The position numbers and the translations under genes were made by a program. 64,000 nt of DNA from Aestuariispira insulae. GTDB lineage: Bacteria; Pseudomonadota; Alphaproteobacteria; UBA8366; Aestuariispiraceae. Under the pieces are notes generated by a model. That model worked only from the letters and a program-made list of their open reading frames with translations. It ran no database searches and had not been told where the DNA came from. This document shows, one piece after another, positions 59,519-63,402 of the stretch (position 1 is the first letter of the stretch; every line of letters starts with the position of its first letter). The DNA lies in NCBI RefSeq assembly GCF_003385955.1, contig NZ_QRDW01000001.1:1121854-1185853 (forward strand), read 5' to 3'.

Positions 59519-59611
59519 GACTTTCCCCCCGAAAGTTCTTGACCGAAAACTTGTCGAACAATCAATACTTTCGATTAACGGGTGAATTATAACATAGTGA
59601 TTATTAACAGA

Positions 59612-60346
59612 ATGATTACGCTCTACACCGATTTCGGCTGGCATGGTCCCTATGTAGGACAGATGAAGACGGTACTCAACAAATTGGCACCGGACCATGA
59701 CATCGTCGATCTGATGCATGACGCCCCGGCCTTCGATCCAAAAGCCGCCGGCTATCTGTTGGCGGCCATGGCCCCCCATCTTCCGGAAAAAGGCATCCAG
59801 CTTTGTGTGATCGACCCCGGTGTCGGCAGCGACCGCCTGCCGGTCTGCCTTCATGCAGATGGCCGTTGGTTCGTCGGGCCCCATAATGGATTGCTGGAAT
59901 TGATACGCCGCCGCGCAGATCAAGCCGCCCTTTATCGAATTGATTGGCGGCCAGAGACCTTATCAAACAGCTTTCACGGCCGGGATCTGTTTGCCCCCGT
60001 TGCCGCGATGCTCGCAACCGGCACCGACTTTCCGCGATCGAAATTGACAGATAAGGACGCCATCGGTCCCTGGCTGGACTGGCCCGATGATCTCGATGAA
60101 ATCATCTATATTGATGATTATGGCAACTGCATGACCGGCCTTCGGGCCAGCACCATGCCGGAGGGGGCCGCCATCGGCTATGAAGCCACCAGCCTGCCAA
60201 ACGTACGTACTTTTTCCGACACTGACGCGGGCCGGCTCTTCTGGTACGAGAATTCGCAGGGGCTGGTGGAGATCGCCGCCAACAGGGGCCATGCCGCCCG
60301 GATCCTAAAAGCCGGGATCGGCGCAAAGGTCCGCATTCAGGACTAA
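59612..60346 (+). CDS. SAM hydroxide adenosyltransferase (DUF62) family protein
   Basis: 244 residues with ITLYTDFGWHGPYVGQMK, CVIDPGVGSDR, VGPHNGLLE, FHGRDLFAPVAA and YIDDYGNCMTG, all hallmarks of the DUF62/SAM hydrolase-halogenase family. It would hydrolyse SAM to adenosine and methionine. The ATG at 59612 gives the normal start. Its stop overlaps the convergent ScfR-like gene's stop. Confidence 0.85.
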   Translation: MITLYTDFGWHGPYVGQMKTVLNKLAPDHDIVDLMHDAPAFDPKAAGYLLAAMAPHLPEKGIQLCVIDPGVGSDRLPVCLHADGRWFVGPHNGLLELIRRRADQAALYRIDWRPETLSNSFHGRDLFAPVAAMLATGTDFPRSKLTDKDAIGPWLDWPDDLDEIIYIDDYGNCMTGLRASTMPEGAAIGYEATSLPNVRTFSDTDAGRLFWYENSQGLVEIAANRGHAARILKAGIGAKVRIQD

Positions 60347-61833
60347 CGGGTTCCGCCCAGCTCCCGGTGGTGATGAGGCCAACCGGCATAGGCATAGGGC
60401 GAAAGACCACGCACATTTTCATCCACCCGGAAACGCTGATGTACCGGTGGCGATGCGCGCTGGCCGCAATCCATCCGGTCACAGATCCGGCAATGGACCC
60501 CGATCCCAAATGCACGATCGCGATTATCCAGATCGATACCGTCGGAATAGATCATCTCGCCCGCATAAAGCGCACTGCAGCCAAGCCCGATGGAAAAGAC
60601 CGAACTTTGCACCCCGAAACCTATACCCCCCTTGCGCACCGTGCGCGCAATGCAGAAAAATCCGGCACCATCTGGCAGATAAGACATTTGCGCCTGGATC
60701 ACGCCCGGATTCATGAAGGCGGAATAGACATTCCAACGTGAGCAGGCCCCCCCGTGGCGCGGAATCGGCAGGCCGGAAAGCGAAAAGCGTTTGGAGATAT
60801 TGCCCGCGATATCCACGCGCAGGAAATGCAGCGGTATCCCTTTGTTGCCGGGTTTATTGAGCGAGGTCAGCCGCTGCGCTGTCTGCTCGAAACTAACACC
60901 ATATTGATGCTGTAGCAGCTCAATGTCATAGCGCACTGCACGCGCCGAATCCAAAAATGCCTGGTAGGGCATCAACAGGGCCGCGGCAAAATAATTGGCC
61001 AGGGCCACCCGGCCCAGATTGCGCACATCCCCTTCCCGGATGCGCCCCTCGGTCAGCAGCATGTCAATCACCGGCGCAGCGGAAAGCAGACCGATCTGAT
61101 GCGCCAGCTGGAAGTTACGCCGGGCATGATCCACCCGGGGTGAGAGCTGCAACAGTTTCTGCGCCGGGTCATAGCGGCGCTGGAACCCTTCCCCTGCCTC
61201 ATGAGACACTGTCTGGACCGTCACCCCATGGGCGGTCTTCAGGTAATCCACCAGGGAATCGTTGCTCTGGGTTTCGATAATGCCGATCTCACGCCGGACG
61301 CGGTCGGCCTCATCCTCCAGGTCCTGGAAATAGTTGGAATGGTTTTGCAGGAAATCCGACACCATATCCGCCGGGGCCACCGTGCCGCCAAGGGGAAAGC
61401 TTTCGTCTCCGGTCTCTTCCGACAATTGAAAGGCCAGGCCGCGCGCATCATCCAGGGATTTCCGGTAGGTGTCATGCAGCATCAACAACGCCTTGGCCGC
61501 ATTGGGGCTGGTGGATACCAGCTCACGCACATCCGTGTTGGTCAAATCCAGCTCTTCAAACAGGTCATCACTCAGAACCGCCATCAGATCCGCCATCAGC
61601 TGGCTTTCATCGCCTTCCGCCAGATCCTTCAGGTCGAGCTGAAACAGCTCTGAAAGCTTCAACAGCATATCCACCGTCACCTTGCGGTGGTTATGTTCGA
61701 TCAGATTGAGATAGCTGGCGCTCACTCCCAACTGATCCGCCAGCTGCGCCTGGGTCTTCCCCTGATCCCGCCGCAATCGCCGGATCTTGGCCCCCAATTT
61801 GGGATTGCCGCCAGCCGTCGCCCCTTTTGCCAT
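60343..61833 (-). CDS. ScfR/RamB-like short-chain fatty acid transcriptional regulator
   Basis: 496 residues. Xre-type HTH (about 12-66; RDQGKTQAQLADQLGVSASYLNLIE), middle ImmA/IrrE-like segment without HExxH, and the DUF2083-type end with CRICDRMDCGQRASPP. In corynebacteria RamB controls glyoxylate and acetate genes. Here it is divergent from isocitrate lyase, and both upstream regions carry TGTAAA repeats. GAGG lies eight bases before the ATG. Confidence 0.85.
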   Translation of the reverse strand: MAKGATAGGNPKLGAKIRRLRRDQGKTQAQLADQLGVSASYLNLIEHNHRKVTVDMLLKLSELFQLDLKDLAEGDESQLMADLMAVLSDDLFEELDLTNTDVRELVSTSPNAAKALLMLHDTYRKSLDDARGLAFQLSEETGDESFPLGGTVAPADMVSDFLQNHSNYFQDLEDEADRVRREIGIIETQSNDSLVDYLKTAHGVTVQTVSHEAGEGFQRRYDPAQKLLQLSPRVDHARRNFQLAHQIGLLSAAPVIDMLLTEGRIREGDVRNLGRVALANYFAAALLMPYQAFLDSARAVRYDIELLQHQYGVSFEQTAQRLTSLNKPGNKGIPLHFLRVDIAGNISKRFSLSGLPIPRHGGACSRWNVYSAFMNPGVIQAQMSYLPDGAGFFCIARTVRKGGIGFGVQSSVFSIGLGCSALYAGEMIYSDGIDLDNRDRAFGIGVHCRICDRMDCGQRASPPVHQRFRVDENVRGLSPYAYAGWPHHHRELGGTR

Positions 61834-61850
61834 CGGATTTCCTCACGATT

Positions 61851-61877
61851 TTTACATGATTATTTACAATATTTACA
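61851..61877. promoter_or_regulatory. TTTACA repeats upstream of the ScfR-like gene
   Basis: TTTACA at 61851, 61863 and 61872; the first two form TTTACA-N6-TTTACA, which on the minus strand is TGTAAA-N6-TGTAAA, 18-53 bases before the regulator start. The same spacing occurs upstream of aceA, pointing to autoregulation. Confidence 0.5.
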
Positions 61878-62046
61878 TTTAGTAAAAAATCAACAAAAAC
61901 CAGTGACAGATTAGTAATGTCAGAAAGCGTTGCTGCATCGACCAGCTATTCGCTATCACTATCTCAACAAGCCAATCCCGCAATAGACGGGCCAAATCCA
62001 GGCCAATCATATGCAAACAGGGGCGGCGATCACATTCTGTTTATCT

Positions 62047-62065
62047 TGTAAAGATAACTGTAAAG
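62047..62065 (+). promoter_or_regulatory. TGTAAA-N6-TGTAAA repeat upstream of aceA
   Basis: TGTAAAG at 62047 and 62059, 12 bases apart, the same period as upstream of the ScfR-like gene. The second copy overlaps the aceA ribosome binding site (AAAGGA), 12 bases before the ATG, so regulator binding here would block expression directly. Confidence 0.5.
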
Positions 62066-62076
62066 GATTGACTGAG

Positions 62077-63402
62077 ATGACTGACAGCATGAATATCGAT
62101 TTCGCCTGGGACGAAGGCAGCAACAACGACAATACCGATTGGCCGACCCCGGATTATGCACCGGACCGCTGGGCCACCACGCGCCGTGACTATACCCTGG
62201 CCGATGTGGAAAAACTGCGCGGCTCCATCCAGATCCGCCATACTCTGGCTGAGATGGGCGCCAAGAAACTCTGGAAGCTGATCACGGAAACCCCTTATGT
62301 AAACACCCTCGGCGCCTTCACCGGCTGCCAAGCGACCCAGCATGTGCGCGCTGGGCTGAAAGCGATCTATCTTTCCGGCTGGCAGGTCGCGGCCGACGCC
62401 AACAATGCGGGCCAGATGTATCCCGATCAGAGCCTCTATCCGGTCAGCTCCGTTCCGCAGGTGATCGAACGGATCAACAATGCCTTCATTCGCCAGGACC
62501 AGATCCAGACCATGGAGCGCCTGGGCGGCGAGGAAACCACCGATATCGACTGGTTTGCGCCGATCGTAGCCGATGCCGAAGCCGGTTTCGGCGGCCCGCT
62601 GAACGTCTTTGAACTGATGAAGGCCATGATCAAGGCCGGTGCCGCAGGTGTTCATTTCGAAGACCAGCTGGCCTCGGAGAAGAAGTGCGGCCATCTGGGC
62701 GGCAAGGTCCTGCTGCCGACCCAACAGGCGGTCCGCAACCTGAACAGCGCCCGTCTCGCTGCCGACGTCATGGGTACGCCGACCATCATCATGGCCCGGA
62801 CGGACGCGGAAAGCGCTCGCCTGATCACCTCCGACATTGACGAGCGCGATCATGAATTCCTGACCGGCGAGCGCACCGCTGATGGCTTCTATCGGATCAC
62901 CGGTGGCCTGGAGATGGGCATTGCCCGAGGCCTGGCCTACGCGCCTTACGCAGACCTGCTGTGGATGGAAACTTCCACGCCAGACCTGGAACAGGCCCGG
63001 ACCTTCGCTGAAGCGATCCGCAAGGAATATCCCGATCAGATGCTGGCCTATAACTGCTCGCCCTCCTTCAACTGGGCTAAGCACCTGGATGTCGCCACCA
63101 TGGAGAAATTCCAGCGTGAATTGGGCGCCATGGGCTACAAATTCCAGTTCATCACACTCGCAGGCTTCCACAGCTTGAACTATGCCACCTTTGAGTTGGC
63201 ACGGGCCTATAACGAACGCGGTATGGCTGGTTATTCCGAACTGCAACAGGCTGAATTTGCCGCTGAACAGCACGGTTTTTCCGCCACCCGCCACCAGCAT
63301 GAAGTTGGCACCAGCTACTTTGATACGGTGAACAACACCACCGCCGGCGGCGAGGCATCCACCACCGCCATGGGTGAAAGCACCGAAAAGGCCCAGTTCT
63401 AA
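62077..63402 (+). CDS. aceA: Isocitrate lyase
   Basis: 441 residues with the isocitrate lyase signature KKCGH around C204 and [10 protein letters not shown]-like metal site ([19 protein letters not shown]). It splits isocitrate to succinate and glyoxylate, opening the glyoxylate shunt for growth on acetate or fatty acids. The ATG at 62077 is preceded by AAAGGA. It is divergent from the ScfR-like regulator and followed by a hairpin-rich 3' region. Confidence 0.97.

Follow-up and report, generated by a model that had tools for sequence, protein, structure and literature searches.

The class 2 regulator RamB of P. denitrificans is both an activator and a repressor; it mainly activates its glyoxylate operon, from 82 bp upstream, and its boxes TGACAAACCTTACA and TGACAATACTGACT lie 32 bp apart in the published oligonucleotides (PMC10370305). 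Read on the opposite strand, the first of these boxes is TGTAAGGTT-TGTCA (TGTAAGGTTTGTCA), with a period of 9. PrpR of M. tuberculosis (MtPrpR) protects the experimentally mapped site TTTGCAAA-N1-TTTGCgAA (PMC3420887) and is a tetramer for which the ligands of a [4Fe-4S] cluster have been described (PMC6765138). For the class 1 RamB of C. glutamicum the motif is AA/GAACTTTGCAAA (PMC4448153). This protein belongs to the same family and has a role in acetate metabolism, and the class 1 core is TTTGCAAA. PccR of Rhodobacter (Cereibacter) sphaeroides, likewise of the ScfR family, regulates propionyl-CoA carboxylase and has a TTTGCAAA-type site.

Here we analyzed a stretch of 64,000 nucleotides (64 kb) from Aestuariispira insulae, referred to as the window, in which the gene of a RamB-like regulator (scfR) is divergent from aceA. 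The features of the locus are the following.

60343..61833, minus strand: scfR, 496 aa, RamB-like regulator with XRE HTH, M78-like and ScfR C-terminal domains (Pfam)
61851..61877, minus strand: scfR-side putative operator array TGTAAA-N3-TGTAAA-N6-TGTAAA, TGTAAATATTGTAAATAATCATGTAAA; 27 bp, three half-sites, periods 9 and 12
61851..61856, minus strand: extra half-site at +12, adjoining the scfR start
61863..61877, minus strand (motif-scan match 61862-61876): core period-9 box TGTAAATATTGTAAA, the conserved putative operator unit
62038..62064, plus strand: aceA-side putative operator array TGTTTA-N3-TGTAAA-N6-TGTAAA, TGTTTATCTTGTAAAGATAACTGTAAA; 27 bp, periods 9 and 12
62038..62052, plus strand (motif-scan match 62039-62053): aceA-side period-9 box TGTTTATCTTGTAAA, with the degenerate first half TGTTTA
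62059..62064, plus strand: half-site over the aceA Shine-Dalgarno sequence AAAGGA (62062-62067; ATG at 62077)
62077..63402, plus strand: aceA, isocitrate lyase, 441 aa (NCBIfam isocitrate lyase equivalog)

The scfR product matched HTH_3 (PF01381), Peptidase_M78 (PF06114) and ScfRs (PF09856, E 5.8e-57) in Pfam, and so combines the C-terminal domain of the ScfR family with HTH and M78-like domains. It aligned with the MtPrpR structures (E 8.5e-73) and shares their CoA/Fe-S binding fold; in the alignment to chain 6cz6_A, the four [4Fe-4S] ligand cysteines (C-X2-C-X4-C and one Cys of the GAF-like domain) occupy the same positions (PMC6765138), whereas Phe155 of PrpR aligns with an Ala. Against the class 1 RamB equivalog NF038139 (NCBIfam), the protein scored 416.1 bits, below the cut-off of 700 bits. 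The gene aceA is the sole isocitrate lyase gene above cut-off in the genome, and an alternative start at 62011 was rejected in favor of ATG 62077, which agrees with the N-terminus of aligned orthologues. A clear aceA promoter was not found in the window sequence. Downstream of scfR lies the gene of a SAM hydroxide adenosyltransferase family protein (59582-60346). The A. insulae genome also encodes a second ScfR regulator (L161:2147-3715, G000:C5) with the same recognition helix, YLNLIEHN, and three TGTAAA copies at most 65 bp upstream of its start.

A pattern search of the window located exact copies of TGTAAA-N6-TGTAAA at 61851-61868 (minus strand) and 62047-62064 (plus strand). These are the only two matches in the 4.82-Mb genome, both between scfR and aceA, and the reversed-pattern control gave none. 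Single TGTAAA half-sites lie at three minus-strand positions (61851, 61863 and 61872) and at two plus-strand positions (62047 and 62059), which agrees with the three copies beside the regulator and two beside aceA counted in a sequence-only reading of this DNA; its observation that one aceA-side copy overlaps the ribosome binding site (RBS) was also borne out. The same reading described a direct repeat shared by both genes with a uniform period of 12 bases. The sharing stands, but the actual spacing combines 9 and 12. The two 27-bp arrays, 187 bp apart from start to start, paired as an inverted repeat with 70% complementarity in a repeat search, and the scfR-side array lies directly upstream of the scfR start codon. 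The aceA-side box is also overlaid by a perfect 17-bp palindrome, TTATCTT-GTA-AAGATAA (TTATCTTGTAAAGATAA, 62041-62057). Another palindrome, resembling TTGTGC-N2-GCACAA, is kept between both operators in L038, L039, L041, L042 and L046 and is degenerate in the window (61923-61945); we take it to resemble the PhaR/AniA motif.

We assembled ScfR genes with their upstream DNA, drawing on 59 relatives as well as 385 class members, and counted conservation in 45 non-redundant alphaproteobacterial intergenic regions with divergent aceA and scfR, with dinucleotide shuffles as the control. As in most relatives, scfR in the window is adjoined by a divergent aceA, which is the glyoxylate-cycle linkage of class 2 RamB. 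TGTAAA occurred 123 times in the 45 regions as against 9.9 times in the shuffles (maximum 19), and was present in 43 of them. Direct repeats of period 9 dominated, with 18 pairs in 16 regions where 0.01 were expected, whereas period 12 was represented by three pairs in only two regions (that of the window and L041) and was therefore rejected as the conserved unit. The 12-base period thus holds for the A. insulae genome and not as a rule of the family: orthologous pairs do carry the half-site, but among the 45 regions the 12-spaced form is confined to these two. The complete 9+12 array was seen only in the A. insulae genome, on both sides of the intergenic DNA, and the scfR-side half-site at +12 was likewise restricted to this genome among the regions examined. 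Among the inspected matches to TGTAAA-N6-TGTAAA in the 59 related genomes, that of G007 (L022) alone falls between scfR and aceA. The position of the aceA-side site relative to the aceA start varies, from over the RBS in L036 and L047 to far upstream in L038 and L041. A box offset of 32 bp is enriched in many relatives; at the place where a second box would be expected in the window (18-bp separation, 32-bp period) there is only a degenerate TGTCA (61904-61908). The annotated aceA/scfR pair of Azospirillum lipoferum carries GTAAATCTTGTAAAG.

Expectation-maximisation with the window left out of training returned the de novo motif TTTGTAAAttTTGTAAAT, i.e., TTTGTAAA-t-TTTGTAAAT. When the 64 kb were scanned with this motif, the scfR-side box ranked first (22.3 bits) and the aceA-side box second (14.0 bits); with all same-family sequences excluded from training, the former remained first and the latter ranked third. 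This rank, together with its TGTTTA first half, is the weak point of the aceA-side box. Across relatives, the box near scfR, usually in minus orientation, surpasses the others in strength and in breadth of conservation. One-mismatch searches of the A. insulae genome with the period-9 and period-12 patterns gave matches no more numerous than the reversed control, and the DNA upstream of the malate synthase gene, which lies elsewhere in the genome, is without a box; no other convincing target was found in the genome by these searches. A near-identical sequence at C7:28715 (GGTAAAGATAACTGTAAA) was dropped as a target because it lies inside a peptidase-like coding gene.

Judged by its putative operator and gene linkage, the A. 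insulae system is of the class 2 RamB/ScfR kind. As in P. denitrificans, the regulator is divergent from glyoxylate-cycle genes, and TGTMA half-sites form a direct repeat of period 9, which characterizes class 2 boxes. In contrast to P. denitrificans, the half-site is purely TGTAAA, scfR and aceA each have a separate 27-bp 9+12 array, with that of aceA on the RBS, and malate synthase is not part of the locus. Compared with the known kind of site, it is these 9+12 arrays and the half-site on the aceA RBS that are unusual. A P. ferrooxidans plasmid served as a stand-in for the P. denitrificans locus: its upstream DNA is identical to the published oligonucleotide at 67 of 80 positions, and its aceB/regulator region carries TGTAAGGTTTGTCA. 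The regulator encoded there is 38% identical to the window ScfR at the protein level, with Leu as residue 44 of its recognition helix. In our tree, this RamB relative (L197) and the window ScfR do not lie close together, and the neighbors of L197 include long branches. With MtPrpR, the A. insulae system shares the period-9 direct repeat, the divergent promoter and, on our reading of the scfR-side array, autoregulation (PMC3420887, PMC6765138); it differs in having TGTAAA where PrpR has TGCAAA, and the target of PrpR is the methylcitrate cycle. The sequence-only reading had set the repeat apart from the RamB motif. That distinction is valid for class 1 RamB and PrpR, whose sites are of the TTTGCAAA type, but not for class 2, since the P. 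denitrificans boxes are TGTAA/TGTCA repeats of period 9.

The sequence shows the sites, how they are conserved and arranged, and the Fe-S ligands; on this basis we infer that the repeats are very probably the operators of the adjacent RamB-like ScfR, as had been suggested; the half-site is conserved between divergent aceA and scfR, and the paralogue also has TGTAAA upstream. One HTH would contact each (T)TGTAAA half-site, and a pair of these half-sites, directly repeated at a 9-bp period, would form the basic unit. In A. insulae a further half-site is added to each unit at a distance of 12 bp, the sum of 9 and 12 being 21 bp, or two helical turns. Through the scfR-side array the regulator would control its own gene, probably by repression, and the box of this array could also act from a distance. 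On the array over the aceA RBS, ScfR would stand in the way of aceA transcription or initiation whenever flux through the glyoxylate cycle is not needed; given how near this array is to the start codon, binding there should impede RNA polymerase and not recruit it. Repression at aceA is nevertheless uncertain because P. denitrificans RamB mainly activates its glyoxylate operon. As in MtPrpR, ScfR is probably a tetramer with a CoA thioester and a [4Fe-4S] cluster, and ligand binding would alter occupancy so that aceA is expressed on acetate or fatty acids. Since no crotonyl-CoA carboxylase/reductase above cut-off was found in the A. insulae genome, the ligand is probably not an intermediate of the ethylmalonyl-CoA pathway. 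Given the dual activity of P. denitrificans RamB and the tetrameric state of MtPrpR, it is possible that ScfR bridges the inverted arrays. The details of repression and release at scfR and aceA are tentative and come close to, without quite reaching, an even chance, and looping between the two arrays is rather unlikely.

The most serious alternative confines true operator function to the period-9 box beside scfR, which would act in autoregulation and also activate aceA from about 200 bp upstream; the aceA-side copies would be weak auxiliary sites or in part a coincidence with the AAAGGA RBS. We regard this as possible but doubtful. The dominance of the scfR-side box among relatives, the gap between 22 and 14 bits, and the upstream activation by P. 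denitrificans RamB all fit it, but it leaves aside that the 9+12 array recurs, inverted, on the aceA side and that the TGTAAA nearest to aceA (62059-62064) is invariant in a six-sequence family alignment including relatives in which it does not overlap the RBS.

ScfR could also be a bystander, with a different TGTAAA-binding regulator acting, for example, through the palindrome at 62041-62057, which can be read with perfect 7-bp arms around a 3-bp center. However, this palindrome is absent from the close relatives in the same alignment, whereas the direct repeat follows ScfR genes, including some not beside aceA and that of the A. insulae paralogue, and agrees with the sites that were mapped for members of the ScfR family (PMC10370305, PMC3420887), which makes another regulator very improbable. 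As for chance, AT-rich intergenic DNA may yield copies of TGTAAA, and the hexamer by itself is hardly commoner in the window than expected (12 copies vs. 10.4, no enrichment); yet five of these 12 copies fall within 214 bp of the DNA between scfR and aceA, and the dinucleotide shuffles and the uniqueness of the paired pattern in the genome argue against coincidence. The conservation test already refutes this explanation, and its probability is negligible.

With ScfR as the protein that most probably binds the repeats, a residue of its recognition helix may bear on the half-site. Ninety-six upstream regions could be assigned clearly to one half-site type and belonged to a regulator with Leu or Gln at HTH position 44; in this set, Leu44 went with TGTAAA in 75 of 82 cases and Gln44 with TGCAAA in 12 of 14. 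The regulator beside carboxylase genes in Azospirillum ramasamyi has Gln at this position and TTTGCAAA/TTCGCAA upstream. Nearly all full-length Gln44 proteins form one supported clade, and the only three independent pairs in the tree are too few to establish the link statistically; the residue-44 code was rejected as independent evidence, although it is kept as a candidate explanation. Four aceA-linked Leu44 regulators (L085, L087, L217 and L218) have TTTGCAAA-type (TGCAAA) copies upstream and are exceptions to the TGTAAA rule. A joint reading, in which Leu or Gln at position 44 switches specificity between TGTAAA and TGCAAA while a tetramer bridges both inverted arrays, shuts off scfR and aceA and blocks the RBS region, is improbable as a whole.

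For the family, these results provide an explicit, tested consensus, TTTGTAAA-N1-TTTGTAAA, for the alphaproteobacterial operators of ScfR regulators linked to aceA. A single change of C to T ties this consensus to the mycobacterial TTTGCAAA-N1-TTTGCgAA site, and residue 44 of the recognition helix could explain that change between TGCAAA and TGTAAA sites. The consensus makes it easier to predict regulons of acetate metabolism in many uncultured lineages.
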